The notes under the pieces are model-generated. The model was given only the letters and a program-made list of their open reading frames with translations, ran no database searches and was not told where the DNA came from. Position numbers and translations under genes: made by a program. Positions 495 through 7,778 of a stretch of 7,778 nt of DNA are shown one piece after another. The number at the start of each line of letters is the position of its first letter. The stretch's first letter is position 1. This stretch comes from Candidatus Poseidoniaceae archaeon (GTDB lineage Archaea; Thermoplasmatota; Poseidoniia; Poseidoniales; Poseidoniaceae): the NCBI GenBank assembly GCA_022425585.1, contig JAKMFF010000287.1, positions 1 through 7,778 on the forward strand, in the 5' to 3' direction.

Positions 495-1070
495 GTGAAT
501 AAGTATATTTCGATTAGTATCACAGTTATTGGTTTATTGATGTTGATAATCTCATCATTAGCGGTGACTAATAACTTGAGCGATTCAGAATCTGTAGATG
601 CGATGCTACCACCTTGTACTGTAGAACAAGGTTTGCCAGTAGTTGGAGAGGATGAGGTGACTTGTTACTGGGGAATGTCTGGAGAAATACTAGAGATACC
701 GAGCGAAGCGATTGCTGCTGATGTAGATGTACAAATTTCTTGGCAGAAATCTGGCGTGTGGATTGGTATTGCTGAGGCTTCAGAAGCAGAAAAATGTGTA
801 TTAAAAACTGATTATTACGAGTGTGACAAAGATTCTGTTACTCTAATAGCTGGTGGACCTACTTCTAATGGTGAAATCATATGGAATCCTAGCCCTGGAG
901 AATATCGTTTTGTTGCGGGAGGCGATGACACACAAACATTACAACAATTTACGGTAGATTGGGAGTATGAGGCTTCATTAAAGTCTGGGTTAGCAATAAC
1001 CATGATGGTTATTGGCGGAGTCCTATTGATTACTGGTGCATTGCTAATTTATCAAAATAGCAATAAATAA
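495..1070 (+). CDS. Small membrane protein with two transmembrane helices and a Cys-containing extracytoplasmic domain
   Basis: The protein has 191 residues and starts at GTG, chosen because AGGTGA sits just upstream. A hydrophobic helix spans about residues 5-24 and a second about 165-187, followed by a short polar end (YQNSNK). The loop of about 140 residues between them is acidic, contains Trp, Gly and Pro, and has four cysteines (41, 57, 101, 110). This suggests a beta-rich domain outside the membrane, possibly held by two disulfides. The first helix may instead be a signal peptide, since LAV followed by a polar stretch could be cleaved; then the protein would be anchored only by its C-terminal helix. 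I do not recognise a family, and similar small archaeal membrane proteins are generally uncharacterised. The gene lies 8 bases after its upstream neighbour and 42 bases before the regulator gene. Confidence 0.8.
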   Translation: MNKYISISITVIGLLMLIISSLAVTNNLSDSESVDAMLPPCTVEQGLPVVGEDEVTCYWGMSGEILEIPSEAIAADVDVQISWQKSGVWIGIAEASEAEKCVLKTDYYECDKDSVTLIAGGPTSNGEIIWNPSPGEYRFVAGGDDTQTLQQFTVDWEYEASLKSGLAITMMVIGGVLLITGALLIYQNSNK

Positions 1071-1112: not shown

Positions 1113-1865
1113 ATGGCAGACCTTGACCTAGCACTATCCCTTTTGCAGAACAAAGTTCGCAGACAAATCTTGGAGAGATTAGTCCGAGAACCGCACTATC
1201 CTATGCAGTTGGCTGAATTGATTGGAGTGAGTCAACAAGCAATAAAGAAGCATTTGAAAGAATTAGAACGAGGAAATTTCGTGACCAAAATGAAGGTCCC
1301 AAGTGAGAAGGGCGGGCCACCAAGAACGATTTATACTGTGCAAGAAGCGATTTCTATCAGAATTGATTTAGGCCCAGATTTATTTAATTGTGAACAACGA
1401 AAATTACCCGCTGGCGGACCTATGCGGTTATCGAGGAAATTACCTGAAGCAACTCACGGAGTTGCCGAAGTCGTCAGTGGTAGGAAACGTATCTCAGTAA
1501 GTGAAGGTGTGGCATATTTGGCTGAACTCAATCAAGTGATTGAGCAATTAGATGGTCAAAGAGATGCATTGATATCATTGCACCAACATATCAGAAACCG
1601 CATCTCGCAAGGAGTAGATAGTGATTTTGAACAGTATGAAGAGAGGGCAATGATTCATTCGATTATTGAAGCGCCAGAAAAGCGACTCGATCTTAACATG
1701 TTAAGCAAGGAGTTACAACTGGGGCAACGACAAGTTTCTGAATTACTGGAAGAAGTCAGAGCGAAGCTTCAACGACAAATCTCTGAAAAGGCAGGCCACG
1801 TAATAGTTACCCCTGAAAACTCCAACCTGTATTGGTGGCTTGGAGATTACAAAAAGTCTAGCTGA
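1113..1865 (+). CDS. ArsR-like winged-helix transcription regulator with extended C-terminal region
   Basis: This 250-residue protein is a DNA-binding transcription regulator. Residues 3-76 form an ArsR-like winged helix: helices at about 3-12 and 14-26, a helix-turn-helix at about 29-54 (PMQLAELIGVSQQAIKKHLK) and a basic wing with KGGPPRTIY at 67-74. Next comes IDLGPDLF (84-91), a segment I associate with archaeal ArsR-family regulators. Residues about 130-165 look like a long amphipathic helix able to form a dimerising coiled coil. Residues about 172-235 read like a second helix-turn-helix (LDLNMLSKELQLGQRQVSEL). At 250 residues it is much longer than typical metal-sensing ArsR proteins of about 100, and it lacks their CVC metal motif; its two histidine pairs are scattered and it has a single Cys (93). 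The ligand and targets are unknown. The stop codon is one base from the convergent giant gene. Confidence 0.88.
   Translation: MADLDLALSLLQNKVRRQILERLVREPHYPMQLAELIGVSQQAIKKHLKELERGNFVTKMKVPSEKGGPPRTIYTVQEAISIRIDLGPDLFNCEQRKLPAGGPMRLSRKLPEATHGVAEVVSGRKRISVSEGVAYLAELNQVIEQLDGQRDALISLHQHIRNRISQGVDSDFEQYEERAMIHSIIEAPEKRLDLNMLSKELQLGQRQVSELLEEVRAKLQRQISEKAGHVIVTPENSNLYWWLGDYKKSS
1851..1855 (-). terminator. Possible T-run terminator for the giant surface-protein gene
   Basis: Reading on the minus strand, a run of five T residues begins 12 bases after the giant gene's stop codon. Archaeal termination can use T-runs without a hairpin. The run lies inside the 3' end of the convergent regulator gene, and five T residues is a minimal signal. 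Confidence 0.25.
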
Positions 1866-1866
1866 G

Positions 1867-4800
1867 TTAATCTTCAGATTCGAGTACTGAAACTAATGAA
1901 GACTGTTCAGCAATCCTCAGTTTTGCCTCTTCTCTGCGGGCCTTACCGACAAAGTAAACAACTCCAAGTAAAGACAGGGTTAGTAAGATTACGACAAATG
2001 GTAATGCTGTTTTTCCGATAACTTGAGATGCAACATCTAAGAATGGGTTAGGTGATTCCAATGGTTCTGAAACCGCTTTTACGTTATTCTTTTCACTACC
2101 TTCGACAATTTCATTCATTGGGTCGACTACTACATAGACACCTTTGCTTCCAGCAACTACTGGATAGAGTAGGTAAATTTCAATCTCTTTAGCATCTTCT
2201 GAGGCATCTGGAGCAAGTAGAGCACCGACAACTTGACGCATGACAATACTGTCTTCGGCACATCCGTTCTTCTGTATCTCATTGATTATTGATTGACTAT
2301 CAACATCATCATATTGACATAATACGATTTCGATATCTATTGCATGAGTATTACCTTGATTTTGCAGTATAATACCAATAGGTATGGTTGAATCAATATC
2401 TGCGCTATAATCTGTGATGATTATCTCTTTGATAACAAGATCTGGGGCTTTTAGACTCAATGTTACAATAAATTCGTTGCTATCTAAATTTTCTCCTTGC
2501 CAAGATGGTGACGAATCGTAATCGCCTCCTTCAGTCATATCTCCTGCCTTAGATACTACTTTCAAACCAACTACTCTAGTGTCTAATTTAGCTGTAGTTG
2601 AGATTTTTACCACTGCAACCATTTCTATTGTTTGGTATGGCGCCATCTTAGGCATCATGTAAACGAAACTATCACCAGACGGAATCACTGCACAACGTAT
2701 TGAATCCTGTGCTTCCTCAACTGTTGCATAGAAGTTATCAATTTCTATTTGGCTAGCATCTCCTGCAGGCATTGGTTCAGATATCTCGACACACGGTTCG
2801 TCTACTTCCAAATCATTGCTTATCTTCTTGATAGTACGCCATTCAACAGACCAACCAGTCAAAGTACCCATTCCAGGAAGTTCTGACCAGATTAAGGCGT
2901 TTCCTTCCTGTTGTGCGGTGTGGTTGTCCAAAGTTGGCCAGTCTTCTACATTGCCATTGTTGGTTATGTTAACTGAGAAACTGACTATTTTGCCGGGTGC
3001 TGATACTTTCACTGGATTGTCTACTGCTGGATCCATATAGACTTCCATATCGTAAAATTCATTGACATAAACGTACAAAAAGTCTGAATCTCTTTCTCTA
3101 GTTAATCTATTATCTTCGTTTGGATATGCTTCTTCAGAGAGAGTTTGGAATTCTACTACATACAATCCTGCTGCAATGTCAAATTCTGGTACATTCATCA
3201 ACACATCGAAAGTCTGATCTGAATCACGATCTAGTTCCTCAAGACTTTCGCGAGGAATTACGATGTCCCAGTGGCCAGTTCTAACAGGAACCCCTGTTGG
3301 GTCCGTTACTGTGGTTAATCTGAAATCAAATCGGTCAGGGCCGTTACCGTTGTTGATAGTAGTGGTTGGTAGGACTATGTTTTCACCAGGGTTAACCGCT
3401 ATTGCAGAGACTGGATTACCAAAGGAATCTGTAACTGTTACCAACCTATCTGCATCTTGCTCAATATTGGTTTCAAGGCTGTATTCATGAATCACGTTGA
3501 TAGTATATCTTGCTGAATCTGAGACTTTTTGATAGCCCTCTAAGTTTGCTTGCAAAGTTATACTCTTAGAACCAATGCTGGCATCTTCTGGAACACAAAG
3601 TGTAACTCTTACTAAGTAAGTCTTGAAGGTAGTACCTGGGTCTAATTTCCATTCTATTGGAGTGCCAAGTGTTGCATCGCTACCTCCTAAAGTTTGAGAG
3701 AAGTCAACATCAACAACCCAGTTTGATTGCCCCCATGTTGCATCATCGATATCGTCTGGCTTTTCTGCTGGTGCTCCTGGGGTGCTAAAGATTAGATTTC
3801 CAGTCTCAAAATTCTTGGTGACATCTTGTTCAAAGGTGTGGCATTGTCCTGCCATTACTTCTTTTTCACTGTCCTCTGGCAGCAATTCTTCAAACACAAT
3901 ATTTCCTTCAGATTGTATAGAAACAAAGATGCCTAATTCAAGAATATCATAAGTTCCTTTGTCAACAGACTTAATCGGTTCGCCTTCTGACCAGCCCTTC
4001 AAGTAGATTACAAATGCACCTGGGTCTTCGGTAGATGGTACCTTTACAGTGAGTATTTTGGTAGTAGATTTGCCCGGGTCAAGTTCGACACGTAGTGGGA
4101 AAGTAATCTCCCAACCAAATGGTAGTAACCATTCTTGCTGACCTTCCAAGGTATTAGGGTCCCAGAATAGGAAACTATCCTGAACGTTACCGGTATTGGT
4201 TATCGTAATCGAGAAGGTCGCTTGACTACCTTGCTCGATATCCTGGACACTAAGTGATGTATCCAAGCTTATTCCGTGAACAACATCCATCAATGTAAGA
4301 GTAGTTAGATCAGACCTGATAGCTGGGTCTTTGTAGGATTTTGCAGTCACTACTATCTGGGCTAATTCATCTTCATTCGCTTGATAGATAGTTGGTGCTT
4401 GAACTCTTAGATAGAAATTAATGAATTCTCCGCCTTTCAGATAGATTGGTGTGGTTGGAGTAATTTGAGTTTGATTGTTAGCAAAGAAAATTTGCACGGT
4501 CCAATTTGTTGGCACTCCTGAAACATTTAATCCATAAGTATCTGCAACTAAATCAATGTCTCCAGGGGTAGAATTGTTCATCGTCATATTGTACAGTGTT
4601 TGTTCACCTGGCTCAATTACATGATAGAAGGTTTCACCTAAGGCTAATTCTACATCTACTTGCCCAGTTAGAACATGTGAATAACAGATGGTAAATGCAC
4701 CATTTTGTTCATCATTACACTTGTTTCTATCCGACCAACCAACGTGGGCACCACTTCCCAGATCGTTAGCAAATGCAGGAGGAATTCCTATTTCTGGCCT

Positions 4801-7014
4801 ACCTGCTGTATCTGTTCCAAGCTTATTGCTGGCCCATGAAGTAATTGAGACAATATCCCATGGATCAAGAGCGAACTCTCCTGTTCCAACAAGGTCTGTT
4901 TGGTTCAGTCTCGTATACTGTACCTCTTCCCCGGCAGTAGTATTGCCAGAATCAACCCAAGCAATGTGAACATTGTTTTGCTCGTCAGTTAGTAAAGAAG
5001 GATAGATCGAATGTCCAGACCATGGACGATTTGCTGCCAAACCGGATAACCCTTCAACATTCGAAATTGGAGTATCTTGAATTTTCTTTATTGCGTAGGT
5101 AGAGAGGCCTTCTTCAGCACCATCAAAAGCACCCGCACCTTGTAATCGTAGTTTGGTGTAATATACTTCATAATTGGCAGATTTTTCAAACCCGTAATCT
5201 CTGCCGTCCATCCATGCAATGTGCGTATTGCCTTGCATATCAACGCCAACGGATGGGTGGAAAGAGTATGCATCGTCGATAGTAACTCGTGTATCGTTGA
5301 CTACGACAAGGTGGCCTTCTTCTCCAGGCCCGGTATCTTCAATGTAATTGCCGTTGACTACGCTGTGACCGGTTGCTCCAGGCGTCCATGTTGGATCATT
5401 TTCCATCTTGGCGTAAGGATCTAACACGGTCATGTAGATTTCTCGAGAATTATTTGTCGCAACGAAAACCATTGCTTCTACCAGCAAAGCCATAGCGCCT
5501 GCTCCACCGCCACCGGATGGGAATTCATACGCCTGTCCTCCAGCGTTTACCGTTCTAGGGTTATTTGAAGGATCGGAGCCTGGACAATTTCTAGCTTGTG
5601 TTGATACGACGCCGTTTGGACACTTTGCCAAATCAAGGAAGTGAGATTGAATACTGCCAGCGCCACCGTATCCTTGACCATATAGGCCAATTGGAATTAC
5701 TCCAGCCTTAACACAGTTATCGTGCGCTTCATCTATTGAATTAATATCATCTGCTTGTTGAGACGGGTCACCGTCTTTAGGACCTTCATCGGAAACAGGC
5801 AACACAATCTTTGTTGCATTTGGATTCCATTTGTGATCTGCTGAAGTAGCAGGATTTCCTGGCACGTTGCCGTTAGTATCTTTCCAAGATAAGCAAGCCC
5901 AGTTTGTCCCTGGACCCCAATCTTCTCCAGAATTACCTGAGTATGGGTTGCCGTTGTAAATGGTATTGCCTAGCGACCTTATTCCTCCAGAATCATCTCC
6001 GTCGCCAAGGGGTGTTGACCTTGGTCCGGCGTTTTGGTTGAATCCTGCACAATCTCCGCTGTCAGCGGCACTTGGCAGCCCAAACCCTCCGTCTAGACCG
6101 TAAATTGTTTCATAAACAGTCATATTGGCGACCTCGAGTAGTGGCTTGATACCCTCAAATGAAGAACCATCAGAGAATGTCCCGCCGTAAATTACCGTGC
6201 ATACATCCGCCCATTCTGAATACATAGAACCAGAGGTGTCTATCACGAAAACCAACTCTACTTTGCCGCCTCTTGTATCGTCCCAAACGATTTGCACTTG
6301 GTCGTTAGCGTCAACAACAATATCTGGGTGGCCTTTGTGCCCGATAATGGGAGTAATCAATGTGTCATCAAATAATACAATGACATTGTTAGTGACAAAG
6401 TCTGGTTGAAGCATGCTGTAGTATATTTGTGGTTGATTGAAGAACTTCTCTTCCGAATCATATTCATCTTGCCATGCGATGTGAATATTGCCTTGAGAGT
6501 CAACATCAATAGATGGCCAATCTCTATCTTGAGCCCTTTGAGAAATTATCGTATCATCAATACCTGTTATTGAATTGTCAGTAGAGGTTTGACCGTTGAA
6601 CGGCTGAATCTTGTAAGGGCTTAGTGCCGTATACATGATTTTGTGAGTGCCTGATTTGTCAGTCCATACAATGTGTATGTTGTCATCTTCATCAGCAACT
6701 ACATCAGGATGCCAAACCTTGTGAATTCCAGCGTTAGTAATTTGGGTCGCATCGATTAGTGTTTCACCGTTACTAGCCACCATCGAATAATACAGATGCA
6801 GATTATTTCTTGCCCATATGATGTGGACATTGCCTTGGCTGTCACCAACTATTGCGGTTTGGGTATCCGAAGCTGAACCGCCATCGACGATTTGTTGAGG
6901 CTCGGTAATAACTACCGTATTTGCTTCAGCAAAATCGCTTGCTACCACCATTCCAGAAAGGGCTGAAAGTAGCATAATTGTTACTAAACTGATTGATTTG
7001 AATGTTTGACTCAT
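1867..7014 (-). CDS. Giant secreted surface protein: split seven-bladed propeller with inserted VWA domain, Ig-like stalk, CARDB and membrane anchor
   Basis: This protein of 1715 residues is probably a type I membrane protein exposed on the cell surface. The start at 7014 is chosen for a GAGGT ribosome binding site 6 bases upstream; an in-frame ATG at 7056 would add 14 residues. Numbering from 7014: signal peptide 1-25 (cleavage near VVA/SDF), seven propeller blades at about 36-785, a VWA domain at about 251-523 inside blade 4, Ig-like modules at about 786-1522 with recurring N-x-G-N turns, CARDB at about 1523-1651 (ending EGSEKNN), transmembrane helix at about 1670-1690, and a charged tail of 25 residues (1691-1715). 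Several N-x-S/T sequons lie in the ectodomain, consistent with N-glycosylation. Its 14 cysteines fall in even numbers per module. It carries no catalytic motif that I recognise, so adhesion or ligand binding is inferred. A propeller or VWA enzyme activity cannot be excluded. Confidence 0.92.
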   Translation of the reverse strand: MSQTFKSISLVTIMLLSALSGMVVASDFAEANTVVITEPQQIVDGGSASDTQTAIVGDSQGNVHIIWARNNLHLYYSMVASNGETLIDATQITNAGIHKVWHPDVVADEDDNIHIVWTDKSGTHKIMYTALSPYKIQPFNGQTSTDNSITGIDDTIISQRAQDRDWPSIDVDSQGNIHIAWQDEYDSEEKFFNQPQIYYSMLQPDFVTNNVIVLFDDTLITPIIGHKGHPDIVVDANDQVQIVWDDTRGGKVELVFVIDTSGSMYSEWADVCTVIYGGTFSDGSSFEGIKPLLEVANMTVYETIYGLDGGFGLPSAADSGDCAGFNQNAGPRSTPLGDGDDSGGIRSLGNTIYNGNPYSGNSGEDWGPGTNWACLSWKDTNGNVPGNPATSADHKWNPNATKIVLPVSDEGPKDGDPSQQADDINSIDEAHDNCVKAGVIPIGLYGQGYGGAGSIQSHFLDLAKCPNGVVSTQARNCPGSDPSNNPRTVNAGGQAYEFPSGGGGAGAMALLVEAMVFVATNNSREIYMTVLDPYAKMENDPTWTPGATGHSVVNGNYIEDTGPGEEGHLVVVNDTRVTIDDAYSFHPSVGVDMQGNTHIAWMDGRDYGFEKSANYEVYYTKLRLQGAGAFDGAEEGLSTYAIKKIQDTPISNVEGLSGLAANRPWSGHSIYPSLLTDEQNNVHIAWVDSGNTTAGEEVQYTRLNQTDLVGTGEFALDPWDIVSITSWASNKLGTDTAGRPEIGIPPAFANDLGSGAHVGWSDRNKCNDEQNGAFTICYSHVLTGQVDVELALGETFYHVIEPGEQTLYNMTMNNSTPGDIDLVADTYGLNVSGVPTNWTVQIFFANNQTQITPTTPIYLKGGEFINFYLRVQAPTIYQANEDELAQIVVTAKSYKDPAIRSDLTTLTLMDVVHGISLDTSLSVQDIEQGSQATFSITITNTGNVQDSFLFWDPNTLEGQQEWLLPFGWEITFPLRVELDPGKSTTKILTVKVPSTEDPGAFVIYLKGWSEGEPIKSVDKGTYDILELGIFVSIQSEGNIVFEELLPEDSEKEVMAGQCHTFEQDVTKNFETGNLIFSTPGAPAEKPDDIDDATWGQSNWVVDVDFSQTLGGSDATLGTPIEWKLDPGTTFKTYLVRVTLCVPEDASIGSKSITLQANLEGYQKVSDSARYTINVIHEYSLETNIEQDADRLVTVTDSFGNPVSAIAVNPGENIVLPTTTINNGNGPDRFDFRLTTVTDPTGVPVRTGHWDIVIPRESLEELDRDSDQTFDVLMNVPEFDIAAGLYVVEFQTLSEEAYPNEDNRLTRERDSDFLYVYVNEFYDMEVYMDPAVDNPVKVSAPGKIVSFSVNITNNGNVEDWPTLDNHTAQQEGNALIWSELPGMGTLTGWSVEWRTIKKISNDLEVDEPCVEISEPMPAGDASQIEIDNFYATVEEAQDSIRCAVIPSGDSFVYMMPKMAPYQTIEMVAVVKISTTAKLDTRVVGLKVVSKAGDMTEGGDYDSSPSWQGENLDSNEFIVTLSLKAPDLVIKEIIITDYSADIDSTIPIGIILQNQGNTHAIDIEIVLCQYDDVDSQSIINEIQKNGCAEDSIVMRQVVGALLAPDASEDAKEIEIYLLYPVVAGSKGVYVVVDPMNEIVEGSEKNNVKAVSEPLESPNPFLDVASQVIGKTALPFVVILLTLSLLGVVYFVGKARREEAKLRIAEQSSLVSVLESED
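1945..2007 (-). other. C-terminal transmembrane helix of the giant surface protein
   Basis: Residues 1670-1690 are a continuous hydrophobic stretch (ALPFVVILLTLSLLGVVYFV). It is followed at once by the basic KARREEAKLR, which fits the positive-inside rule and puts the remaining C-terminus in the cytoplasm. I see no LPXTG or PGF-type sorting motif, so the protein is probably held by this helix itself. Confidence 0.85.
2062..2448 (-). other. CARDB domain of the giant surface protein
   Basis: Residues about 1523-1651 show the CARDB pattern: an opening PDLVIKEI, then a strand ending in the N-x-G-N turn (NQGN), and a closing stretch VVVDPMNEIVEGSEKNN. CARDB is an Ig-like adhesion-type module common in archaeal and bacterial surface proteins. 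Two cysteines (1566 and 1585) may form a disulfide within it. Confidence 0.8.
2449..4659 (-). other. Tandem Ig-like stalk modules of the giant surface protein
   Basis: Residues about 786-1522 appear to hold five beta-rich modules of roughly 115-200 residues, with boundaries near 911, 1028, 1176 and 1319. Most carry a turn of the type N-x-G-N or N-x-S/T-x-G-[DN] after a strand: NNSTPGD in the first, NTGN in the second, NNGN in the fourth and fifth. Several have a 'P-G-x' strand entry, as in NEW3, DUF11 and CARDB-like Ig folds. The third and fifth each have exactly two cysteines (1058/1140 and 1408/1441). The exact borders are estimates. Confidence 0.65.
4660..6909 (-). repeat. Seven propeller-blade repeats in the giant surface protein, the fourth split by a VWA domain
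   Basis: A strand motif close to P-[DS]-x-x-x-D-x-x-x-N-x-H-I-x-W-x-D occurs seven times, with its Trp at residues 67, 117, 181, 244, 601, 686 and 760. Each copy is followed by a second strand of the type [IV]-x-Y-[ST]: LYYS (74-77), IMYT (126-129), IYYS (197-200), IYMT (526-529), VYYT (617-620), VQYT (698-701) and ICYS (776-779). Seven copies suit a seven-bladed propeller. The motif resembles 'BNR-like' repeats but lacks a full sialidase Asp box (S-x-D-x-G-x-T-W), so sialidase activity is not indicated. Confidence 0.75.
5446..6264 (-). other. VWA domain with MIDAS motif inserted in propeller blade 4
   Basis: Residues about 251-523 begin with a strand, VELVFVI, running into DTSGS (Asp259, Ser261, Ser263), the D-x-S-x-S metal-binding motif of VWA domains. 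A later strand, KIVLPVSDEG, gives Asp409 in the position of the usual 'TDG' Asp, and GPGTNW offers Thr370 as a candidate third ligand. IPIGLYGQG (440-448) and HFLDLAKCPNG (458-468) match the final strand and helix of VWA folds. It is longer than the usual 180-200 residues because of a Gly/Asn/Asp-rich insertion at about 290-395. It holds six cysteines. Confidence 0.85.
6940..7014 (-). other. Signal peptide of the giant surface protein
   Basis: From the start at 7014, MSQTFK is followed by a hydrophobic core (SLVTIMLLSALSGMVVA) and a small-residue cleavage context near residue 25. A start at 7056 would only lengthen the basic n-region and would not remove the signal. Confidence 0.85.
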
Positions 7015-7017
7015 AGA

Positions 7018-7040
7018 TAAACCTCGCTTATAGCGATTTA
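7018..7040 (-). promoter_or_regulatory. Leader hairpin enclosing the ribosome binding site of the giant gene
   Basis: On the minus strand the leader can fold as TAAA-TCGCT, a three-base loop ATA, AGCGA, a GG bulge, then TTTA: 9 base pairs in all. The bulged GG is the core of the GAGGT ribosome binding site. The inner TCGCT/AGCGA arms are perfect. The 13-base inner palindrome could instead be a protein-binding site on DNA. Confidence 0.4.
7021..7025 (-). promoter_or_regulatory. Shine-Dalgarno site deciding the start of the giant gene
   Basis: GAGGT on the minus strand ends 6 bases before the ATG at 7014. The alternative in-frame ATG at 7056 has no such site. Confidence 0.7.
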
Positions 7041-7082
7041 TCCATGGCCTCTTCATACTTAACTACGACCCATTCAGGTCAG

Positions 7083-7099: not shown

Positions 7100-7747
7100 T
7101 TAGGCCCATTCTGATGGGTCGAAACTAGTGCCAAAAGACATTTTTTCGTCAAATTCAATTTCTGGGCTTTTCGTATTTGCTTGTGTAATGTCAATGTTAT
7201 TACTCCGCTCTTTTTGCACCGCTTCCCGATTATCCCAATCGTCAACTGGCCCGGGCTTACCGACACCTGGCCCATATGAGTATTTTATTTCGTGAATTAT
7301 GCCTAGCTTGGCTAACCAAAGTCTCCTTAACGAGTGCATAAATTCATGCTTTGTAACCCCATCAAACCAGATTGGCAAGCTAACATTGAATGCTTGAAGC
7401 GGACCCGGTTTTTTATTGTCATCGTGACCCATGTGTATACCCCAGTCTACTGAAGAGTTGATCAATTGAAGTCGTGCTTCGTGAATCCATTCAGACCACC
7501 CATCGCTATCATCCTTCATGTGATTTTTCATTTCCTCTTGTTGTCCTTTGTCTACTCTAGTCATACTAGAAATAGCAATTAAATCACGATTTTTTGGGAT
7601 TACTACCGCAAACATATGTCCTTGTTTTCCTTGTGGATATTTAATCAAAATATGAGCGTGTGCTCGACCATCTGGCTGTTCTTTGACAAAGAGCCTCTCC
7701 TCGCCTAACCACTTCATGACCATAGACACTATCTCGGTTGGGGACAC
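7100..7747 (-). CDS. Probable DUF2299-family protein with an acidic C-terminal tail
   Basis: The coding stretch gives 215 residues from a GTG at 7747. The frame remains open upstream to the right edge (FKQYEVLAGY precedes the GTG), so the gene may start outside the window; ATG codons at residues 9 and 11 are other options. The opening helix with KWLGEERL, then alternating strands around AHAHILIKYP and HMFAVVIPKNRDLIAISS, resemble my recollection of DUF2299, an archaeal family of unknown function with a small alpha/beta fold. No catalytic residues stand out. Residues about 85-140 add helices around WSEWIHEARLQLI and KHEFMHSLRRLWLAKLG. The last 65 residues are polar and acidic, probably flexible, ending DPSEWA. 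There is no signal peptide or membrane helix, so it is cytoplasmic. It lies upstream of the giant gene on the same strand with no T-run between them, so read-through is possible. Confidence 0.75.
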   Translation of the reverse strand: MSPTEIVSMVMKWLGEERLFVKEQPDGRAHAHILIKYPQGKQGHMFAVVIPKNRDLIAISSMTRVDKGQQEEMKNHMKDDSDGWSEWIHEARLQLINSSVDWGIHMGHDDNKKPGPLQAFNVSLPIWFDGVTKHEFMHSLRRLWLAKLGIIHEIKYSYGPGVGKPGPVDDWDNREAVQKERSNNIDITQANTKSPEIEFDEKMSFGTSFDPSEWA

Positions 7748-7778
7748 ATACCCTGCGAGAACCTCATATTGTTTGAAT

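Follow-up and report, generated by a model that had tools for sequence, protein, structure and literature searches.

The locus described here raises the question of whether an archaeal protein carries a VWA domain nested inside a seven-bladed propeller, as some animal integrin alpha chains do, and whether such a head arose independently of them. The window, that is, the whole stretch of 7,778 nucleotides analysed (contig JAKMFF010000287.1 of assembly GCA_022425585.1, Candidatus Poseidoniaceae archaeon), contains a large gene on the reverse strand. In the head of its product (residues 48-800; 4657-6915, reverse strand), the predicted model supports one seven-bladed propeller with a VWA domain inside blade 4 that bears a putative metal ion-dependent adhesion site (MIDAS). 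Sequence comparison across the phylum supports a true insertion, probably independent of animal integrins. The features on which this rests are the following.

1867..7056, reverse strand: whole gene, an open reading frame of 1729 amino acids (aa)
6274..6915, reverse strand: propeller blades 1-3 and strands a and b of blade 4 (residues 48-261), from the model, structural alignment and hand-sorted strands
5446..6273, reverse strand: inserted VWA domain (residues 262-537), from the model, fold matches and conservation
6223..6240, reverse strand: putative MIDAS loop 1, DTSGSM (D273, S275, S277), from motif and conservation
5905..5907, reverse strand: putative MIDAS loop 2 hydroxyl, T384 in GPGTNW, from the motif and a helix start in the model
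5788..5790, reverse strand: putative MIDAS loop 3, D423 in VSDEGP, from motif and conservation
4657..5445, reverse strand: strands c and d of blade 4 and blades 5-7 (residues 538-800), from the model, structural alignment and hand-sorted strands

Architecture of the predicted head

Seven H/Q-I/V-x-W motifs end at W81, W131, W195, W258, W615, W700 and W774, and the tryptophan spacings of 50, 64, 63, 357, 85 and 74 residues given in a preliminary description of the window were reproduced exactly. Residues 1-900 hold seven such motifs, whereas 2000 shuffles of this stretch averaged 0.27 and never gave more than 4; given this excess, and with 168 of the 194 class genomes giving a match, chance or artefact was rejected as the source of the repeats. 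The gap of 357 residues contains the VWA-like features DTSGSM (273-278), GPGTNW (381-386) and VSDEGP (421-426), at the place where a VWA domain had been proposed, between VQIVWDD (residues 254-260; 6277-6297) and EIYMTVL (residues 539-545; 5422-5442).

An AlphaFold2 model of residues 39-869, built with 49 sequences, had a mean predicted local distance difference test score (pLDDT) of 73.2 and a predicted template modelling score (pTM) of 0.72. Manual sorting of its strands gave seven units of a-b-c-d order, in which residues 47-56 at the N terminus were taken as the fourth (closing) strand of blade 7; confidence was low for the final strand of blade 5 and for parts of blades 6 and 7. In this predicted model, the 276-residue segment 262-537 follows strand b of blade 4 and precedes strand c. 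Chains aligned to the model by VIA, among them WDR5 and PLL lectins (both of which we take to be seven-bladed), CylK, and integrin alpha-M and alpha-L, span both of its ends (about residues 43 to 800), and the blades flanking the VWA domain were thus aligned to one propeller, these ranges giving the first and last aligned residues only, with the propeller possibly aligned in a shifted register. Two propellers or two separate domains were rejected on the basis of these alignments. The model, the alignments and the sorted strands agree with the earlier proposal of a VWA domain within one blade of a seven-bladed propeller, and the predicted model showed neither of the outcomes named as speaking against it, separate flanking domains or a different blade count. 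The interval given for the arrangement, 5446-6909, had to be corrected, as it spans only blades 1 to 4b and the VWA domain.

When modelled alone, the VWA segment gave a pLDDT of 81.6 and a pTM of 0.86 and adopted a Rossmann-like VWA fold, and the structure search suggested in the preliminary description returned integrin beta-I and alpha-I domains among its best matches. Foldseek also listed unrelated folds at low probability (e.g. galactanase 2gft, probability 0.16), and the 50 VIA rows included 9c4f_I, a chain not identified from an entry titled B19V capsid. By sequence, the domain falls below the Pfam VWA cut-off (12.7 bits against 23.8), so that annotation pipelines will tend to miss it. 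At E<=1, 9 of 56 family members matched Pfam VWA (best 0.019), and PF00092 was found in none of four Poseidoniia genomes versus 11 of 14 control genomes.

The propeller itself would be of a BNR_4 or 'PDIAV'-like type. NF053835 (PDIAV-motif) matched the window protein at E 1.4e-11 with 44.5 bits, below its cut-off of 90, and PF15892 (BNR_4), without a match in the window protein by Pfam at E<=1, is carried as a precomputed domain by the relatives P0124, P0125 and P0142. RIVW/LVIVD repeats are reportedly the subject of Adindla 2007, a paper cited in PMC3192720. Single-sequence and profile searches of PDB sequences yielded no match to the window protein, a phage collection none at E<=1e-5, and PADLOC nothing; a viral structure library returned distant propeller-like matches.

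Such a fold would also suit a protein that captures substrates for feeding, with the propeller binding or cutting sugars or other polymers and the VWA domain as an accessory binding module. Propeller enzymes and PLL lectins head the Foldseek and VIA lists, and the fold is similar to that of lectins, sialidases and glycoside hydrolases. BNR_4 scores above its cut-off in a VWA-less relative (P0208) and just below it in another (L161), and passages of PMC6336850 report genes for the degradation of high-molecular-weight matter in Marine Group II (MGII) genomes. However, the VIA rows are 5-13% identical, which indicates a shared fold only, and no sialidase Asp-box (SxDxGxxW) occurs in residues 1-900. 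Moreover, the VWA domain is conserved at least as well as the blades, with a mean identity to the window of 0.656 as against 0.573 and 0.622 for the blade parts in a 49-row alignment. We consider a feeding role unlikely.

Spread, candidate metal site and origin of the insertion

The head query matched the 168 class genomes at E<=0.001, weak and partial matches included; in one of them (G005, E 1.1e-4) the profile did not confirm the match, and the 20 listed of the 26 class genomes without a match were 0.7-1.4 Mb in size. At the level of the phylum, the head profile matched 121 of 292 genomes, the weak matches among those listed and examined being partial and mostly of propeller repeats, and the VWA profile matched 127 of 389. 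Both propeller halves were matched by 356 distinct protein strings, a count in which one gene may appear as several strings of differing length. A VWA match was present in 334 of these, and the remaining 22 were partial pieces or generic repeat proteins. The survey for the nested order that had been suggested gave a uniform answer, with a VWA match in all 269 distinct strings reaching the junction from both sides. The insert measured 269 to 549 residues in 263 strings of clean order, and a dedicated search for a close head relative without a VWA domain yielded only pieces and distant propellers. One copy (L017; G004:C26:25032-27507) has its head split into two overlapping open frames of 502 and 984 aa, which is a frameshift or sequencing error.

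For the conservation analysis, rows shorter than 220 aa and duplicates were dropped from 279 aligned rows, leaving 144 distinct VWA segments; the MIDAS loop names and VWA strand assignments are those we assume from other VWA domains. The pattern DxSxS...T/S...D (D273, S275, S277, S/T384 and D423) was kept in full in 133 of the 144 segments, the loop 2 hydroxyl position 384 being Ser or Thr in most relatives. Among the other 11, seven have Ala at the loop 2 column (four of which read GPAATW, with a Thr one residue on), one is truncated and three are degenerate. The six VWA cysteines were each present in 143 or 144 of the 144 segments, and R538 and E539, where the chain leaves the VWA domain and re-enters blade 4, were invariant in 49 of 49 rows. 

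Extra copies of the gene are present in some genomes, and all eight that were aligned (L151-L158) hold the VWA domain at the same site. Two of these, L151 and L157, have inserts of 547 and 435 residues as compared with about 276, with some 160-270 aa added close to the end of the VWA domain; they are nested insertions, in which a propeller contains a VWA domain that contains a further segment. After its head, L157 carries TSP_3 repeats (residues 1199-1525 of its open reading frame; 23.9 bits against a Pfam cut-off of 25), thrombospondin type 3 repeats that take the place of the CARDB/NEW3 domains of the window protein. The 'thrombospondin genes' that have been reported in Poseidoniales may include it.

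The wide occurrence in the class (168 of 194 genomes), the presence of more than one copy in some genomes, and the large, secreted and acidic character of the protein would also fit a structural envelope or S-layer-associated protein, whose VWA domain binds a neighbouring copy and whose metal serves lattice assembly. Paralogues with a TSP_3 stalk or with a degenerate MIDAS fit a diversification of ligands better than a uniform lattice, and we hold this role to be improbable.

Relatives of both parts were also found apart. Weak VWA-profile matches came from G240, G278, G284 and G386, which apparently lie outside Poseidoniia, a placement drawn from match strength and from their first appearance in the phylum-wide search. 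The loci examined from these (L170, L171 and L172), covering three of the four genomes (not G240), encode large repeat proteins with a DTSxSM...W start, an E[ST]W loop and an SDExxYxG loop, and no propeller part was matched within the stretches covered. L170 scores 19.5 bits with Pfam VWA (cut-off 23.8), and Pfam also finds Big_7 and PKD domains in it; by eye, L171 and L172 appear immunoglobulin-like (Ig-like), and both extend to the end of the stretch covered. As a side observation, the VWA subtype of these three loci and the window is a candidate new VWA subfamily. Propeller profiles matched P0208 and three loci of the phylum search (L161, L162 and L163), and in none of these four did the VWA profile find a match at E<=10. 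L161 has at least five regular repeats followed by CARDB and PKD domains, and in P0208 seven repeats were counted (six by pattern, one by eye), each about 51 residues long. The VWA alignment, used as query, retrieved 97 short proteins; many of these are named partial or lie on short contigs, and a stand-alone VWA copy may be among them.

An independent insertion is supported because this VWA subtype occurs outside propellers, and the same repeats without a VWA domain, within the phylum. It is also supported because no FG-GAP family was found in the window protein by Pfam at E<=1 and no DxDxDG calcium loop in residues 1-900. The convergence with integrins proposed in the preliminary description thus gained support, as did its remarks on a missing FG-GAP motif and on an insertion point unlike that of integrins. 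A propeller gene of the Poseidoniia lineage would have acquired a VWA subtype that the phylum already possessed, independently of animal integrins, and since relatives of both parts survive apart, this origin could be reconstructed.

Stalk, anchor and possible function

Outside the head, the protein has the following parts.

6919..7014, reverse strand: predicted signal peptide (residues 15-46), by hydropathy only (hydrophobic windows 19-43)
2008..4656, reverse strand: stalk (residues 801-1683), from domain matches
2074..2448, reverse strand: CARDB domain (residues 1537-1661), above the Pfam cut-off
1945..2007, reverse strand: predicted single C-terminal transmembrane helix (residues 1684-1704), by hydropathy
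1870..1944, reverse strand: short charged tail (residues 1705-1729; 6 acidic, 5 basic), probably on the cytoplasmic side

The stalk also has a NEW3/DUF7507-like match near residues 939-1017, below cut-off. Translation may start at M15 (7014) rather than at residue 1, because the database protein P0002, 100% identical to the window protein over the searched region, has 1715 aa. A 99% match to residues 1-1729 was found at L013 (contig PBTA01000014.1 of the metagenome-assembled genome 'Euryarchaeota archaeon isolate NP73'), and residues 39-869 (831 residues) have a 100% match in genome G001.

Taken together, we think it fairly probable that the protein is a membrane-anchored, extracellular, metal-dependent ligand-binding or adhesion receptor with a VWA-in-propeller head that arose independently of animal integrins. 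Fold, insertion point, conservation of the MIDAS and cysteines, and family spread were computed; from the sequence and model we infer metal binding, ligand binding, a role in adhesion or capture, and the face occupied by the VWA domain. The propeller, with the VWA domain in the b-c loop of blade 4, would serve as a platform presenting that domain on its top face, and the Ig-like stalk would raise the head off its single transmembrane anchor. The VWA domain would hold a divalent metal in its MIDAS, and this site would engage a ligand; an acidic group is one possibility, carried by another cell, a partner protein or particulate organic matter. Passages of PMC6461757 place Poseidoniales in particle fractions, which we count in favour of such a receptor.

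Several points weigh against it. The model is of moderate confidence (pLDDT 73.2) and came with no inter-domain error estimate, so that the orientation of the VWA domain on the propeller is not fixed, and Foldseek gave no row better than E 0.001 for the VWA domain. VWA domains serve non-adhesive roles too, and metal and ligand binding by the head are themselves read from sequence features. In L016, L023 and L043 the loop 2 hydroxyl is replaced by Ala (GPGANW); L153 and L154 have Gly at the third loop 1 position, L158 has lost four of the five positions, and the fold is kept in these three. An intact site is therefore not required in every copy, and such losses argue for either diversified ligands or a secondary role of the metal. 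Furthermore, coastal MGII cells are described as mostly free-living in excerpts of PMC6864105. L153, L154, L158, L016, L023 and L043 provide natural controls for metal dependence.

More tentative, and in our judgement slightly short of probable, is the stronger statement that archaea independently evolved an integrin-alpha-like adhesion receptor, with a MIDAS-bearing VWA domain on the same propeller face, an Ig-like stalk and one transmembrane helix, present in most sampled Poseidoniia and with paralogues that have different stalks or have lost their metal sites. If true, the most abundant archaea of the surface ocean would have in it a general system for surface recognition, and a MIDAS-in-propeller head using the same face would be reachable outside animals and outside integrins. 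The protein is a candidate attachment or recognition protein for this uncultured group, in which, according to passages of PMC6461757 and PMC6336850, adhesion was previously ascribed to archaella, flotillin and thrombospondin genes.

Three further genes lie in the window.

1113-1865, forward strand: winged-helix regulator, with HTH_20 and HTH_5 above cut-off and weak Phr/SurR-like and Csa3-like matches
7100-7777, reverse strand: DUF2299 protein, flanking the gene
495-1070, forward strand: small protein with hydrophobic stretches at each end and without a family match above cut-off

These neighbours, and only these, were searched for at 14 loci, at six of which the identity to the head and stalk of the window protein is no more than 44-49%. 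DUF2299 was found at 13 of the 14, the other (L001) being without upstream sequence. The regulator was matched at all 14, adjacent and convergent in 13; at L169 it lies on the same strand, separated by about 3 kb. The small protein stood beside the regulator gene in the eight closer loci and was undetected in the six more distant ones.

Relation to known systems

The literature searched, in which subscription journals were thinly covered, yielded no account of this protein or of an archaeal propeller containing a VWA domain. Known BNR_4/PDIAV propellers (PF15892; NF053835) share their repeat type with the window and include the VWA-less L161, L162, L163 and P0208. PilY1/PilC is another prokaryotic surface protein that combines a VWA domain with a seven-bladed propeller, and PilY1 is described in passages of PMC11891296 as having an N-terminal VWA domain with conserved cysteines. 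A PilY1-like mechanosensor or assembly factor, in which VWA domain and propeller act together on a surface filament, would fit this pairing and the six near-invariant cysteines seen here, and archaellum genes are reported in Poseidoniaceae in excerpts of PMC6461757. In PilY1/PilC, however, the domains are in tandem and the protein is pilus-associated, whereas the archaeal protein has a nested VWA domain in a stalked head on a transmembrane anchor. Identity with PilY1 was rejected because the VWA domain is nested in the propeller rather than in tandem with it (PMC11891296, in the parts available), and a role of this kind appears rather remote.

The closest likeness is to integrin alpha chains with an alpha-I domain (alpha-M, alpha-L and alpha-X), whose seven-bladed propeller head recurs here in the predicted model and whose order of signal segment, head, stalk, one transmembrane helix and short tail is the same. 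The alpha-I domain lies between blades 2 and 3, whereas the archaeal VWA domain lies in the b-c loop of blade 4 and has six conserved cysteines and a long insert. Integrin alpha has a beta partner, whereas the archaeal head has no known one; PF00362 (integrin beta) was found in none of four genomes, but neither was it in any of 14 control genomes. Passages of PMC12422189 and PMC3192720 date the alpha-I insertion to early chordates. According to the latter, the 1-2 and 3-4 loops form one blade end in integrins, and the former places alpha-I directly after the end of blade 2, which makes alpha-I a 4-1 loop insert at the opposite end. As the 2-3 loop lies at the same end as the 4-1 loop in an antiparallel blade, the archaeal VWA domain would occupy the same propeller face as alpha-I, judging from strand order and these two papers. 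Lacking FG-GAP repeats, DxDxDG loops and the integrin insertion point, the archaeal protein is not an integrin, yet its design works like that of an integrin alpha-I head.

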